The notes beneath the pieces are model-generated. The model made no database searches. It was not told the origin of the DNA and saw only the letters and a list, made by a program, of their open reading frames with translations. DNA of 42,728 nucleotides from the NCBI GenBank assembly GCA_913048435.1, contig CAJWWC010000010.1:1-42728 (forward strand). Reading direction: 5' to 3'. Positions 1 to 25,486 of the stretch are shown here, piece by piece. Numbering within the stretch: the stretch's first letter is position 1; the number at the start of each line of letters is the position of its first letter. Made by a program: the position numbers and the translations under genes. The stretch is from an uncultured Flavobacteriales bacterium. GTDB lineage: Bacteria; Bacteroidota; Bacteroidia; Flavobacteriales; UBA7312.

Positions 1-2813
1 TTGTAGGGAAAAGTTCCTCCAGAAATATTTGAATTTATTATTCCATCAGAACCACCATAACAACTTACATCAGTTGTAAATAGCTCAGCTCTTAATTTTT
101 GTGGTTGATTAATAAATATAGTATCAGCTTTTGTACATCCCAATTCATCTTCAACAACCACCCAATACTCACCAAAACCTGAGGTAATAGATGATGAACT
201 ATCACCAGTTGACCACATGTAAGTTAAATTTCCAGAGCCTCCATTACTGGAAATGGTAGCTGTCCCATCTAAAGATTCAAAACATGACGTTGGTGTTGAA
301 CTCAACTGAGAAAAAATTTCATCATTTTCATGAATAAATACTGAATCAATTACACTACAGCCTCTAGAATCAATAACTTCAACAAAATAAATACCCGAAC
401 TCAGTTGTTCAGCATAAGATTCTACATGTCCACTACTCCAATTGTAAAAATATGGTGGAGTACCACCATCAACCTGAACATTTGCAGATCCTGTTGCAGA
501 ACCGTGACAACTAATATTTACATTTTGTAATTGAATATCTAATGGTGTAGGTGATTCTGTTATGTCTACACTCAAACTACTCAAACAGTCATTATTATCA
601 GTAATTTCAAGATTATAAGTGCCTGATTCTAAGTTAAAAAGAAAAGGAGAATTTATATTACCGTTGTTGACCCAATCAAATTCATATGGTGGAGTACCAC
701 CACCAGTAATATTTACTATTATTTGTCCATCATTACCTCCATGACAAGAGATATCATTTTTAGTGTATGAAACAGAAATAGGATTTGGATGAGTGACTGA
801 AACCTCATCGGTTGCTTGACAACCATTATCATCTTCAACTATCAAATAATAACTTCCCGCAGGAACTGTCAATAAAGAATCTGAACCTACAACTTGATCA
901 GTTCCAGAATTAAACCAAGTGTAAGAATATCCTAAACTTACATTTCCACCTGAAATTTCTTGTACTTGAACAGTTCCTGTACTATCACTTGCACAATTAA
1001 CATTTGTAGATTCTGTCAAAACTTGTATTGCAGGTTGTGCGGAGCCAACACCGACACTATCACTAATAATACAACCGATTCCATCTTTAACCTTTATATC
1101 ATAAAAACCAAAATCAAGATCATTAAAATTATAAAAATCAAAATAATTTATACCACCATCTATAGAATATTGAATTGGTGAAATAGCAGAATTTTCAGCT
1201 AAAATTATTATAGAACCATCAGAATAACCTTGACAACTTACTGGTTGACTAAAAATATCTAAACTAAAATCATCTGCTGCTGTTGTTGGTACCAAGATTG
1301 TACTTGAACAACCTACTGAGTCAACTCCTTGAAGAGTGTAAGTAATTGAAGACAATGTAGAAATTTCAATTGAACTTCCAGTATCAGATGATATAGAAAT
1401 ATCTGGAGTCCAATAAAAATTTTCAGCACCGAAAGCATTAACTTCAACTGGTATTCCACCACAAACTAATATTTCTTGAGGTGAATATGATATTTCAGGC
1501 AATGATTGTTCAAATAGTTCTAATTCATGAGTATCAGAACAACCATTGAAATCTGTAATTGTTAAACTATAAATTCCTGGCTCATTTACTGTAATTTGAT
1601 TGGTACTACCAAAATCTCCCCAATCAAAATTAAAAGGAGGTGTTCCACTGTTTACAATAGGATCAATTATATATACATCTCCGTCGCAATAACTGTCTTG
1701 AAGAGGTAAAACTATTTCTGGAACAGGCTGTGAATATACTCTCAATGAATCTGATTGAACAGTACAACCTGTTGAGTCAGTAGCTTGTACCCAATAGTAC
1801 CCAGGAGTAGCAGAAATACTTTGAGTAGTTTCTCCAGTATTCCAAAGAAAATCAAAATTTTCTCCTCCAACATTAGCTGTTAGTATTATTGGAGTCCCAC
1901 AATTAGTGAATATTTCATTAGAATCAACATCAAGACTATTTTCAACAGTCAAAGGTGGTGATGAAAAACTACCAGCTTCTAGTAAAACAAATGATGACAG
2001 TCCAGTATCTGTACCATCGGCTATAGCTAATCTAATATGATATGTTTCTCCACAAAGAACATTAGCTTCTGCTGTGATAACTGTAGTAAAACCATCTATA
2101 ATTGGATTTATTGTATTATCACCGTTGTCTTGATTAGACACAAAAAGTGCAGGATTGTAAGTAGAATTAACTGAAGATATAGTTATAGGCAAATCTACTC
2201 CTAAGCTGTTAGCTTCTGTACTTTCAAATGTAGCAATATTAATACTTCCATTGGGATATTCAGGAGGACTAGAGTATGGTCCAATTATATTTGGACCGGA
2301 AATAAAAAAACCAAAAACGTCATTGAATTGAGTATTTTCATAGGCAAAGTACTCTTCAGAAGCAAAAACATATTGAAACGAAAGGTATGAAGAAACTGGT
2401 ACAAAGTCAAATTCTAATATAGCAACATCGTTTACAGACGTTACATCAAAATCTTGTCCAATTAGGTCAGGAACAGAACTTGCTAATTCTAATAAATCAG
2501 GATCATTTACAGCATTAGCAAAAAAACCTCCAAAAGCACCAGGAACAATTTCCAGTATATCACCTGTTCCCATTATTATTCCACTGTCTAAACCAATATT
2601 ACTATTTTCTCCATTAAAAAAACCTATTTGTAGTGGATCTCCTTCAAAAATATGATTTGTGGCAAATACTCCTTCACCTAATAATAAACTGTCAACAAGA
2701 AAAACCGGAGAATTAAAGGGAGGATTAGAATTTGTAGTGATTTGACTAAATAAGTATGAATAATTTACAGTAGCAAATAATATTAGTAAAAAAAGAGGTT
2801 TAAAAGCAATCAT
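1..2813 (-). CDS. Large secreted/surface protein with choice-of-anchor L domain and SprB-like repeats (N-terminal part, runs off left edge)
   Basis: An open frame of about 937 codons runs from an ATG at 2813 to the window edge with no stop. It begins MIAFKPLFLLILFATVNYSY, a plausible signal peptide. Residues of about 35-265 match the choice-of-anchor L domain, with the hallmark FASEEYFAYENTQFNDVFGF around residue 150. After that come Ig/PKD-like modules of roughly 80 residues, with phrases such as YYWVQATDSTGC and GIYSLTITDFNGCSD. The visible C-terminal half holds about six SprB-like repeats, for example ISCHGGNDG followed by GGGTPPYEFDW, and VSCYGGSDG at the edge. Each carries a conserved Cys. 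The family is typically exported by the type IX system and acts as an adhesin or gliding-related surface protein; a C-terminal sorting domain would lie beyond the window. No good promoter was found: a TAAATTG element lies 24 bp from a TTTG, which is a poor fit. Confidence 0.85.
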   Translation of the reverse strand, partial: MIAFKPLFLLILFATVNYSYLFSQITTNSNPPFNSPVFLVDSLLLGEGVFATNHIFEGDPLQIGFFNGENSNIGLDSGIIMGTGDILEIVPGAFGGFFANAVNDPDLLELASSVPDLIGQDFDVTSVNDVAILEFDFVPVSSYLSFQYVFASEEYFAYENTQFNDVFGFFISGPNIIGPYSSPPEYPNGSINIATFESTEANSLGVDLPITISSVNSTYNPALFVSNQDNGDNTINPIIDGFTTVITAEANVLCGETYHIRLAIADGTDTGLSSFVLLEAGSFSSPPLTVENSLDVDSNEIFTNCGTPIILTANVGGENFDFLWNTGETTQSISATPGYYWVQATDSTGCTVQSDSLRVYSQPVPEIVLPLQDSYCDGDVYIIDPIVNSGTPPFNFDWGDFGSTNQITVNEPGIYSLTITDFNGCSDTHELELFEQSLPEISYSPQEILVCGGIPVEVNAFGAENFYWTPDISISSDTGSSIEISTLSSITYTLQGVDSVGCSSTILVPTTAADDFSLDIFSQPVSCQGYSDGSIIILAENSAISPIQYSIDGGINYFDFYNFNDLDFGFYDIKVKDGIGCIISDSVGVGSAQPAIQVLTESTNVNCASDSTGTVQVQEISGGNVSLGYSYTWFNSGTDQVVGSDSLLTVPAGSYYLIVEDDNGCQATDEVSVTHPNPISVSYTKNDISCHGGNDGQIIVNITGGGTPPYEFDWVNNGNINSPFLFNLESGTYNLEITDNNDCLSSLSVDITESPTPLDIQLQNVNISCHGSATGSANVQVDGGTPPYFYNWSSGHVESYAEQLSSGIYFVEVIDSRGCSVIDSVFIHENDEIFSQLSSTPTSCFESLDGTATISSNGGSGNLTYMWSTGDSSSSITSGFGEYWVVVEDELGCTKADTIFINQPQKLRAELFTTDVSCYGGSDGIINSNISGGTFPY

Positions 2814-2919: not shown

Positions 2920-4671
2920 TCAACTATTTTTAAGTTGGAGATTATGTAAAAGTTTATATTTACCATTATAAGAGAGTAACTCCTCATGATTTCCTTCTTC
3001 TATTATTCTTCCCTTTTCTAACAAAATTATTTTATCTGCATTTTGAATTGTTGCCAATCGATGTGCGATCACAATTGAAGTTCTTTCTTTTGTTAATTTT
3101 TCTGAGGCGCATTTTAAAAGAGATTCACTCTCAGAATCTATATTTGATGTAGCCTCGTCTAAAATCAATATTTTAGGATAATTTAGATAAGCTCTCACGA
3201 ATGAAATTAATTGTTTTTGACCTAGTGATAACATTCCACCTCTTTCTCTAACATTGAAGTGATATCCATTTGGAAGGGATTTAATAAAATCGTCAATTTC
3301 AATTTCCTTTGCATAGGCTCTAACCTTTTCCAAATCTATCTGCCTTCCTAATACAATGTTATTATAAATACTATCAGAAAATAAAAACACGTCTTGCAAT
3401 ACAACAGAAACATTTTTTCTTAGTGATTTTAGATCATATTCGAGATAATTTACACCATCTATATAGATAGCTCCCTGATTAATTTCATAATTTCGAGTCA
3501 ATAAATTAATAATAGAGGACTTTCCTGCACCAGTTGCTCCAACTAAAGCTAAGGTTTCTCCTGCAGAAACTTTAAATGACACGTCTCTCAACACCCAATC
3601 CTTAGCATTATATGCAAACCAAACATTCTTAAACTCTATATCACCTCTACAATTATCAAGTGAGATTTTGCCTAAATTTGAAATTGATTCATTTGTATCT
3701 ATTACTTTGAAAACTCTTTCTGAAGCAACCATACCCATTTGTAAAACATTAAAACGATCAGCTAACTGACGAATAGGCCTAAACAACATGTGAATGTATA
3801 ATATAAAAGCTATCAATTCTCCAAGTGTAACGTCTGTAGTCGTTGCAGCCTGGACACCTCCCCACCAGATAAGTAATCCTATAGAAATAGCTGATAAAAT
3901 TTCAACAATTGGAAAAAATATAGAATAATACCAAATTGACCTAATATGAGCTTTTTTATGATTATCATTAATAGATTTAAATCTTTCAAACTCAATATCT
4001 TGTCTGTTAAACAACTGAACTATATACATTCCAACAATATGCTCTTGAACAAAAGTGTTTAAAGCAGACACTTGTTTTCTAACATCTTGAAATGCTTCTT
4101 TAATGGAACGCTTAAACCAGTATGTAGCTACTAGCAATAATGGAATTGATGCTAAGCTAAATAATGCCAATCGCCAATTGGTTATAAACATAACGACAAT
4201 GACAATAATTAACTTTAGAATATCAGCAATGATAACTAATAAGCCTTGAGAAAATATGTCTGAAATGGTTTCTATATCAGAAACAACCCGAGTCACCAAA
4301 GCTCCTATCGGATTCTTATCAAAGTATTGTTGTTTAAAATGAATTATTTTTTTGTAAACCTGCAATCTCAAGTCTCTAATTACACTTTGACCTAAAAAAT
4401 TGGACCAATATGTGTAAAAGTATTGTAATATACTTTCGGCAAATAATAAACCTACTAATAAAAGAGTTATAATAAGTAGTTTATCTTCATTTGGAGTTAA
4501 AATGTAGTTATCAAAAGCGTACTGTATTAATAATGGTCGTGCTGGTGACAAAAAAGCAATCAAAATTGCAAATATTGCTGTACCACAAAAAATATTTAAA
4601 TACGGTTTTACATAGTTTAAAACTCTCTTTAACAATGGTGCATCAAAAGTTTTACCGCTTACTTCAGTCAT
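2920..4671 (-). CDS. ABC transporter, fused permease and ATPase (MsbA/MdlB-type exporter)
   Basis: A half-transporter of 583 residues that would work as a dimer in the inner membrane. A six-helix transmembrane domain (about residues 20-310) precedes a nucleotide-binding domain (about 345-575). The NBD shows Walker A GATGAGKSS near residue 376, a Q-loop (VVLQD), signature LSLGQKQL near 480, Walker B ILILDEAT near 502 and H-loop IVIAHRL near 533. LSLGQ instead of LSGGQ is normal for MdlB-like exporters. I chose the ATG at 4671 because it overlaps the truA stop as ATGA; a TTG two codons upstream is possible. It is thus translationally coupled to truA. The substrate (lipid, drug or peptide) cannot be told from sequence. 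Confidence 0.93.
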   Translation of the reverse strand: MTEVSGKTFDAPLLKRVLNYVKPYLNIFCGTAIFAILIAFLSPARPLLIQYAFDNYILTPNEDKLLIITLLLVGLLFAESILQYFYTYWSNFLGQSVIRDLRLQVYKKIIHFKQQYFDKNPIGALVTRVVSDIETISDIFSQGLLVIIADILKLIIVIVVMFITNWRLALFSLASIPLLLVATYWFKRSIKEAFQDVRKQVSALNTFVQEHIVGMYIVQLFNRQDIEFERFKSINDNHKKAHIRSIWYYSIFFPIVEILSAISIGLLIWWGGVQAATTTDVTLGELIAFILYIHMLFRPIRQLADRFNVLQMGMVASERVFKVIDTNESISNLGKISLDNCRGDIEFKNVWFAYNAKDWVLRDVSFKVSAGETLALVGATGAGKSSIINLLTRNYEINQGAIYIDGVNYLEYDLKSLRKNVSVVLQDVFLFSDSIYNNIVLGRQIDLEKVRAYAKEIEIDDFIKSLPNGYHFNVRERGGMLSLGQKQLISFVRAYLNYPKILILDEATSNIDSESESLLKCASEKLTKERTSIVIAHRLATIQNADKIILLEKGRIIEEGNHEELLSYNGKYKLLHNLQLKNS

Positions 4672-5414
4672 AACCAAATAGATTTAGGATATCTAATTTT
4701 TGTAAGATATAAAGCATTTGCAGGAACAGAAGTTCCGGCCTGTGCCCTATCTTTTGACTTTATGATTTGTACAAAATCATCAATACTTATTTTACCTACA
4801 CCAACATTGATTAAAGTACCTACAATAGCTCTTACCATATTTCTCAAAAATCGGTCAGCTTGAATAGTAAAAATAAGCGTATCACCCTTTTGCTCCCAAA
4901 CTGCTTTATTTATTTTACAATTATTAGTCTTAGTTTGTGTATGTAATTTAGAAAATGAAGTAAAATCAATGAAATCAAATAACCGACTTGCGGCTTTATT
5001 CATCAATTCCATATCAACATGCTTGTGTAATAAATAAGCTCTATTTACCATAAACGGATTTTTATTTTTATAAACTACATACTCATAGGTTCTTGAAATC
5101 GCATCAAATCGACAATGCGCAGTAGTTTTTACCTTTCTGATAGATTTTACAGAGATGTCTTCAGGAAGAAAAGAATTAAGACGATAAACGATATTACTGC
5201 AAGTTAGATTGGAGTCGTAATCAAAATGAGCAAAAAATTGCTTAGCATGAACCCCTGCATCAGTACGTCCAGCTCCCATTACTCCAATTTTTTCACTCAA
5301 TATTGTAGCCATAGCTTTCTCTAATTGCTCCTGAACTGTTATAGAATTAGATTGAACCTGCCACCCATGATAGTTAGAACCATCATACATTATTTCAATA
5401 AAATATCGCTTCAT
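4668..5414 (-). CDS. truA: tRNA pseudouridine(38-40) synthase TruA
   Basis: This enzyme isomerises uridine to pseudouridine at positions 38-40 of the anticodon arm of many tRNAs. At 248 residues it has the usual TruA length. The catalytic aspartate is Asp52 in the family motif GRTDAGVHA, and FRCDAISRTYEY-like text (seen here as HCRFDAISRTYEYVVY) and the C-terminal FLRNMVRAIVGTL also match. It is the first gene of a two-gene unit with the ABC exporter, whose ATG overlaps the truA TGA. A TATCTTCG element about 14 bp upstream on the minus strand is one mismatch from the -7 consensus, without a clear -33 partner. Confidence 0.96.
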   Translation of the reverse strand: MKRYFIEIMYDGSNYHGWQVQSNSITVQEQLEKAMATILSEKIGVMGAGRTDAGVHAKQFFAHFDYDSNLTCSNIVYRLNSFLPEDISVKSIRKVKTTAHCRFDAISRTYEYVVYKNKNPFMVNRAYLLHKHVDMELMNKAASRLFDFIDFTSFSKLHTQTKTNNCKINKAVWEQKGDTLIFTIQADRFLRNMVRAIVGTLINVGVGKISIDDFVQIIKSKDRAQAGTSVPANALYLTKIRYPKSIWL

Positions 5415-24991: not shown

Positions 24992-25486
24992 TTATTGACA
25001 GTATAATTGTAGCTGCTTGACAGATATGTCACTTCCATCAACTATTTTGTGAGCTTTATTGTAATACCCTTTTCTTTCATTTAAATTTTCAAAAACAAAA
25101 TTTGATAATTCATTATCTTTTAAACTGGCAATTAATGGTCGATTTTTTTTTGATAATCGTAATCTTGATATCAGTTCAGTTGGATGCATGTCAATATATA
25201 TTGTTAAACCATTTTCTTTCATTAATTGCATGTTATTAAAATAACATGGAGTACCACCACCAACAGCAATTACAGTATTTTTAGTTTCCATTGCGCTTTG
25301 AAGATAAACTCTTTCTATTTTTCTAAAATAATCTTCACCATTTTTAAAAATTTCATTTATTGATTTGGATTCTTGATCTTGTATGTAAATATCTAAATCA
25401 ATAAAATCATATTCAATGTTTAAAGCTAATTTTTTTCCTAAAGTACTCTTACCACAACCCATAAATCCAATTAAAAAAATTATCAT
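24992..25486 (-). CDS. aroK: Shikimate kinase
   Basis: Phosphorylates shikimate at the 3-hydroxyl in aromatic amino-acid synthesis. At 164 residues it has normal length. The P-loop is GFMGCGKST (7-15), the shikimate-binding aspartate lies in FIDLDIYI (29-36), the arginine in YFRKIE (53-58), and GGGTP (76-80) is the conserved glycine loop; NRPLI carries the lid arginine. It is sandwiched between the SDR gene (20 nt gap) and hutH (17 nt gap) on the same strand, an unexpected joining of a biosynthetic and a catabolic gene. Confidence 0.95.
   Translation of the reverse strand: MIIFLIGFMGCGKSTLGKKLALNIEYDFIDLDIYIQDQESKSINEIFKNGEDYFRKIERVYLQSAMETKNTVIAVGGGTPCYFNNMQLMKENGLTIYIDMHPTELISRLRLSKKNRPLIASLKDNELSNFVFENLNERKGYYNKAHKIVDGSDISVKQLQLYCQ

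Follow-up and report, generated by a model that had tools for sequence, protein, structure and literature searches.

SprB, the gliding adhesin of Flavobacterium johnsoniae, is a very large surface protein of the type IX secretion system (T9SS) that carries SprB repeats (PF13573) and has a type B sorting domain. The genes described here differ from it in having a type A domain and a choice-of-anchor L head, and in forming a gene set with a common stalk. The closest analogue of this set is rgpA/kgp/hagA of P. gingivalis. The repeats of these genes are described as identical within and between genes, automated assembly was incomplete with a contig break in each gene, and domain rearrangement is described as well (PMC5266723). 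As in the present set, these are T9SS proteins of Bacteroidota with different N-terminal parts and identical shared regions; in that account the C-terminus is formed by a conserved domain of about 80 aa, a further likeness. There, however, cleaved adhesin and DUF2436 modules, arranged in varying order, make up the shared parts, with protease heads in rgpA and kgp, whereas the present set has SprB repeats and one collinear tract that is homogenised nearly to the last codon.

Recombination between copies of surface protein genes has been described elsewhere. Intragenomic recombination between paralogous surface adhesins is reported for babA/babB of Helicobacter pylori (PMC3444412), where the proteins are unrelated to those of the present set. 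For Flavobacterium psychrophilum, a 10-kb repeat with an adhesin gene and a PorP/SprF gene is reported in two recombining copies (PMC5808330); these are given as inverted copies that flank an inversion, whereas here the copies are direct and only their 3' parts are alike. A SprB-repeat gene set of the present kind was not found in the open-licence literature among the matches listed, judged by title and start of the abstract. The surface-protein type is already known, and what appears new is the variant with a set-wide homogenised stalk. Our main reading, to which we assign a probability of roughly 0.8, is that these are surface proteins of the T9SS type A class, in which each N-terminal head is private while the C-terminal SprB stalk is homogenised by gene conversion.

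The window, i.e. the whole stretch of 42,728 bp that was analysed, is the entire contig C10 of a draft genome (G000; 1.24 Mb, 36 contigs, 65.7% complete). As its left edge is the end of the contig, gene A (Table 1) cannot be extended leftwards in this assembly. The original prediction had described a frame that is not closed at the edge and that codes for a full choice-of-anchor L domain and at least six SprB-like repeats with a period near 80 residues, and all of this was borne out. The NF038133 match scores 177 bits (cut-off 27) and spans profile positions 4-219 of 219. PF13573 reaches 102.8 bits (cut-off 28), with five stretches passing individually at E 1, and a motif scan places unit starts at residues 523, 603, 686, 765, 840 and 914, a period of 74-83. 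The prediction of a large partial surface protein holds, and relatives indicate that its missing part has further repeats and a T9SS sorting domain; in the visible part of gene A, where the gene end is missing, the sorting-domain match (residues 797-816) is below threshold with 19 bits (cut-off 23). Gene A is a member of the known surface-protein type that combines choice-of-anchor L with SprB repeats. AlphaFold2 models of the head, run on five sequences, had a mean pLDDT of 35.9 and were unusable, and a sequence comparison with the PDB gave no match to the head at E 0.1 or below.

Table 1. Gene A and its neighbourhood at the start of the window (positions in the window; residues refer to the gene A product).
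Feature	Position	Strand	Evidence
Gene A, 5' part	3..2813	-	937 aa, ATG start, no stop up to the edge; 3' end lost at contig edge
Probable signal peptide, about residues 1-24	2742..2813	-	translation judged by eye
Choice-of-anchor L domain (head), residues 41-283	1965..2693	-	NF038133, E 3.7e-52
Six SprB-type units, about residues 519-937 (stalk start)	3..1259	-	PF13573, E 6.9e-30, and motif scan
18-bp copy 1: GGTPPY, residues 783-788	451..468	-	frame one base off the 18-mer
18-bp copy 2: GGTPPY, residues 705-710	685..702	-	exact 18-mer match
ABC transporter gene adjoining A; conserved neighbour of A in relatives	2920..4677	-	PF00664 and PF00005
tRNA pseudouridine synthase, next conserved neighbour	4668..5414	-	PF01416, E 5.8e-33

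An 18-bp stretch had been noted to recur exactly within gene A, encoding the GGTPPY of two repeats, and we confirm this. Elsewhere in the window it has no match within two mismatches, and the sole further match within three lies at 25242-25259, with 3 mismatches. Shuffled sequences gave a mean of 0.04 matches, a null which disregards that both places encode one motif. Given GGTPPY twice, the probability of identical codons is about 0.004 (codon usage from the gene A ORF and 14 neighbouring ORFs). In the four relatives from the same genus (G001-G004), GGTPPY is kept at both places and the two DNA copies are identical in none; in a further relative (G006) the peptides at the two places differ. 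When the motif is held in register, 24 of the 66 nt that precede the six codons are identical, as are 30 of the 105 nt downstream. A gapped alignment of the two repeats, which puts the motif out of register, has the same codon at 13 of 24 identical residues, against 10.3 expected. Across all pairs of the six units, the codon is the same at 138 of 243 shared residues (106.4 expected), and this general excess speaks for some common history or for a local codon bias of the repeats.

The repeat had been taken as a hint of duplication or conversion. As a conversion tract it is unsupported past six codons, and because the four same-genus relatives keep both peptides with other codons, the 18 bp are weak evidence of conversion. 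From the sequences compared we read it as a very short match and probably not as a trace of conversion, whatever its length, though the surplus of same-codon residues among the six units counts against this. In kind, the hint proved right: conversion does appear to occur in this gene family, but it involves different genes and stretches of the 3' half that are hundreds to thousands of bases long.

A total of 60 genomes, including that of the window, were searched and 47 had a match. In family f11, where 48 of 52 genomes match the tract in some form, complete genes with shared 3' parts are available. A two-contig genome (G019) has three large genes on one contig of 1.39 Mb, namely H1 (1647 aa), H3 (1471 aa, with a start that by eye resembles that of gene B, described below) and H2 (1537 aa, with a choice-of-anchor L head). 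The 3' parts of the three are 98.75-99.97% identical over 2.9-3.2 kb. As a control, nine distinct ORFs of at least 900 aa from the G019 stretches examined were compared, and only the three-gene set shares tracts at 85% or more. Among 18 f11 genomes, which were picked for strong or multiple matches and are thus a biased choice, 11 contain one or more pairs of genes, or of gene pieces, with 2.3-3.2 kb in common at 97.7% or more. No such pair was found in the other seven (G057, G104, G070, G066, G085, G069 and G090), for each of which one stretch was examined. A further head type, starting approximately with QCTV..YIWPDTNN, was observed in G088 on a 1222-aa gene (L167), the 3' part of which is 99.1% identical over 2.35 kb to the H3-type gene of that genome. 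The same head type occurs in G070 on a 1435-aa gene (L172).

Heads and tails were compared for 17 complete genes from seven f11 genomes, with the last 900 aa (2.7 kb) taken as the tail; G062, G091, G088 and G050 were omitted because one or more of their copies are broken or cut. Tails that belong to different heads of the same genome have a mean DNA identity of 99.3% (13 pairs, 98.6-100), with 99.0-100% at fourfold sites. Tails from different genomes are on average 65.1% identical if they belong to the same head (42 pairs) and 64.3% if their heads differ (81 pairs), with a mean of 47.0% at fourfold sites. Head proteins behave in the opposite way: those of one genome are 19.7% identical to each other, whereas the same head has 62.8% identity across genomes. 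Accordingly grouped are the trees: in the tail tree each of the seven genomes forms its own group with support 1.000, while the head tree groups by type, H1 at 1.000, H2 at 0.995, and H3, as all the rest, split off at 1.000. The near-identity at silent sites argues for recent common DNA and not for protein constraint alone. In BLAST comparisons the shared tract falls 4-14 codons short of the stop codon in 10 of the 13 pairs and reaches or passes it in the remaining three.

It might be supposed that heads are actively switched, as in phase or antigenic variation, with crossovers in the stalk exchanging heads between loci within a population. H2 is indeed not tied to one locus, as it follows the ABC transporter gene in three genomes (G099, G100 and G102; L166 = G102:C6) and lies beside fusA in G019 (L125 = G019:C2). 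Head and locus are therefore not strictly coupled, and some head movement has happened. However, in all ten f11 genomes that have copies on one contig the copies are on the same strand, so that switching by a simple inversion is not possible; crossing over between direct copies would lead to loss or duplication of the DNA in between. We consider active switching unlikely.

The window's own family, f1, comprises ten genomes (G000-G009), in which neighbouring genes were named by sequence resemblance, with elongation factor G confirmed by Pfam in L158 only. A head-bearing orthologue of gene A was found in eight of them (G000-G007) and runs off a contig edge in every case; for G008 and G009 no head match for A was listed. 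A second gene with another head, gene B, runs off a contig edge in all five genomes that were read for it (G001, G002, G003, G004 and G006). The same five genomes contain two tail pieces, T1 directly before gene C, which codes for a choice-of-anchor L protein, and T2 directly before the genes for elongation factor G and ribosomal proteins. That A ends at contig edges is likely because A and B share near-identical 3' sequence within a genome. In G006 the head of A and the T2 tail are about 100 kb apart, as they form the left and right ends of one contig (G006:C5, 100583 b).

The complete architecture is seen in A', a third relative in G002, and in H2 of G019; both consist of a choice-of-anchor L domain, seven SprB stretches and a type A sorting domain. 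The type A T9SS domain (TIGR04183) was found in A', in H1, H2 and H3 of G019 and in both tails of G001. A' is a complete gene for 1646 aa, arranged in tandem, which has 67% identity to A and is not homogenised. A remnant of A' was noticed in G004 (G004:C39; L063:4965-5582), where the early head joins the sorting domain in frame; the stalk is gone and there is one internal stop. No protease head was found, as heads match choice_anch_L or, like B, H1 and H3, none of the named head families. Close to a head, Pfam gave a single match above cut-off, to BiPBP_C (residues 419-464 of H3 in G019). Cleaved adhesin domains are absent from the Pfam matches of P0001 (at E 1) and of seven related proteins (at E 0.01). 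From fragments, gene A would have a length of about 1,650 aa in G003 and 1,647 aa in G004, so that the window shows slightly over half of the gene.

The end of the window gene is most likely carried by another contig of its genome, C8, with about 600 residues missing in between. At its right end C8 codes for a stretch of 88 residues that matches a type A sorting domain (E 2.6e-13), followed by gene C (770 aa, NF038133 E 5.6e-55). C8 is preferred as the continuation because relatives place an A-type gene between the ABC transporter and a gene resembling gene C, and this assignment thus follows from synteny; in G100 (L157) the ABC transporter gene is followed by H2, and H2 in turn by a gene whose product has a type B domain. 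Gene C itself is like A in having the same head domain and in adjoining an A-type tail, but its sorting domain is of type B and it lacks a SprB match at E 0.01, although its counterpart in G100 has such a match. Two other 5'-cut repeat genes, whose orientation would fit, were considered as the continuation. The one at the right end of C5 (L022:4005-5468) has a type B domain, unlike the relatives of A, and the one at the right end of C4 (L024:5184-7568) is less preferred than C8 on the synteny of relatives. The C5 and C4 stretches examined have no identical word of at least 16 bases in common with gene A.

Neither a second copy of the end of A nor one of the C8 tail was found in the 36 contigs of the window genome. 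The best match to the B head outside gene A has 41% identity (residues 54-329) and belongs to an 849-aa gene on C12 with its own ending (L023:3447-5993), which is perhaps another user of a B-type head. Gene A could accordingly be an ordinary single SprB-repeat surface gene that is broken at its own internal repeats, which do exist. We regard this as quite improbable: the visible internal repeats, at 63-77% in the longer families, have diverged too far to interrupt an assembly, the orthologues in the genus break together with B, and the window genome is only 65.7% complete. Since no partner gene was found in this incomplete genome, we infer the participation of the window gene in conversion from its relatives.

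For the f1 relatives, the contig ends were compared in detail. In G004, the last 141 bp of A are identical to the last 141 bp of B and to the first 141 bp of T1. The ends of A and B share 139 bp in G002 and G006, and so do the starts of T1 and T2. In G003, 55 bp are common to the end of A and the starts of both tails, while the end of B has no match. Exact end matches of 55-141 bp look like assembler overlaps at branch points, and independent evidence at these ends comes only from the flanking stretches that contain mismatches. Around the overlaps, A and B are 97.3-97.9% identical over 237-399 nt in G001, G002 and G004, and 97.3% identical in G006 over only 150 nt, which hardly exceeds the overlap. 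Near-identical ends of A and B thus occur in four of the five genomes, G003 being the exception. Before this jump in identity, which sits at a different place in each of the four, identity of the two genes is 32-57% where the heads are aligned and, for the most part, 50-77% in the middle. When the same gene is compared between genomes in the columns of the jump, means per window are 55-83% (with the close pair G002/G003 left out).

The tails continue this picture. Up to column 440, T1 and T2 are 88.9% identical in G001, 97.8% in G002, 92.6% in G004 and, on short coverage, 84.9% in G003 and 100% in G006. In G001 both tails are assembled over about 500 aa, and it is to this length that the 88.9% refers. 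Between genomes, tail windows have a mean of 72% (range 52-90, pair G002/G003 left out). For this close pair the two T1 tails are 91.9% identical, so that the short T1/T2 comparison of G003 (84.9%) falls below it. All f1 genomes are drafts, in which the shared middle is mostly unassembled.

We also counted, for each pair of genomes, the sites that unite the four sequences by locus and those that unite them by genome. In head columns 600-980, before the jump, grouping by locus leads in all ten genome pairs, narrowly so in pairs with G006 (e.g. 69 to 61). In tail columns 240-440 grouping by genome leads in all ten (e.g. 114 to 2 for G001/G004). In the last columns (455-512) grouping by locus leads again in the six pairs without G006, while grouping by genome leads in the four with G006, which is consistent with a longer tract in that genome. 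In the alignment, T2 ends in FSEKK (G001-G004) or FAEKK (G006), and T1 is without that ending. Locus identity is thus kept in the heads, in the flanks and, in four of five f1 genomes, in the last residues, and the part in between is uniform within a genome. Being uniform within and diverged between genomes, with flanks that remain true to the locus, this part has the pattern of gene conversion between paralogues.

The same identity could simply reflect age, if the stalk had been duplicated recently in each lineage and fused to other heads. The 99-100% identity at silent sites fits any recent copying, and the additional tandem relative A' in G002 shows that duplication occurs. However, the same head types recur across genomes and group by type, neighbours are conserved in two families (the ABC transporter beside A, and fusA downstream on the B/H3 side), and duplications that arose independently would need to have hit the same loci every time. 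As head types and neighbours recur across two families, we consider fresh duplication very unlikely. It is least credible that assembly or binning has produced the shared tracts by collapsing or wrongly copying repeats, for although contigs of draft genomes break exactly here in f1 and meet in exact overlaps of 139/141 bp (G002, G006 and G004) or 55 bp (G003), these overlaps are flanked by mismatches, both tails of G001 are assembled over some 500 aa at 88.9%, and f11 genomes have two to three copies with different heads on one contig.

Six other genomes were examined, and shared tracts were seen in two of them (G022 and G031), while none were found in the parts examined of G042, G055, G026 and G015. 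In G031 (G031:C21; L182:1794-12851), adjacent genes for 1802 and 1883 aa have different N-termini and a common 3' part of 4.2 kb with 95.6% identity. In G022 (G022:C1:225001-254000; L177 and L178), tracts of 0.5-2.8 kb that are 98-100% identical recur in adjacent ORFs with SprB repeats; these ORFs are perhaps one very repetitive or broken gene. Four titled loci from one contig scan are all from uncultured or MAG Flavobacteriales, one of them a member of Cryomorphaceae, and by our reading of the isolate names the carriers are probably marine.

With gene conversion as the preferred reading, the following scheme can be proposed. The product of gene A would have about 1,650 residues, comprising a signal peptide, the choice-of-anchor L head, a SprB-type stalk and, at the C-terminus, a sorting domain of type A. 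It would be encoded by one of two or three genes per genome that have unlike heads and near-identical 3' parts, covering the stalk and most of the sorting domain. These 3' parts would be kept alike within a genome by gene conversion, i.e. non-reciprocal homologous recombination. Type A proteins are reported to be bound covalently to anionic lipopolysaccharide (PMC9143113). Because the T9SS signal is C-terminal, the common stalk would be located at the cell surface with the private heads pointing outward, so that putative adhesins with different tips would stand on one stalk. Conversion may be selected, a common stalk serving a common anchoring route, or it may be a by-product of the identity.

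In two families of uncultured marine Flavobacteriales, the 3' parts of these genes thus point to concerted evolution over kilobases that leaves the identity of the heads intact. This offers a reason why draft genomes break inside such genes, the pieces of which will be annotated as separate proteins. It also provides a testable setting in which a common anchoring stalk is kept while the displayed tip diversifies. More tentatively, and with considerable doubt on our side, the homogenised stalk might act as a standing substrate for recombination in a tip-and-stalk system of free-living marine Bacteroidota, the anchoring part staying uniform while heads move between loci over evolutionary time. 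If so, new combinations of surface tips would arise without a phage, a transposon or an invertase.
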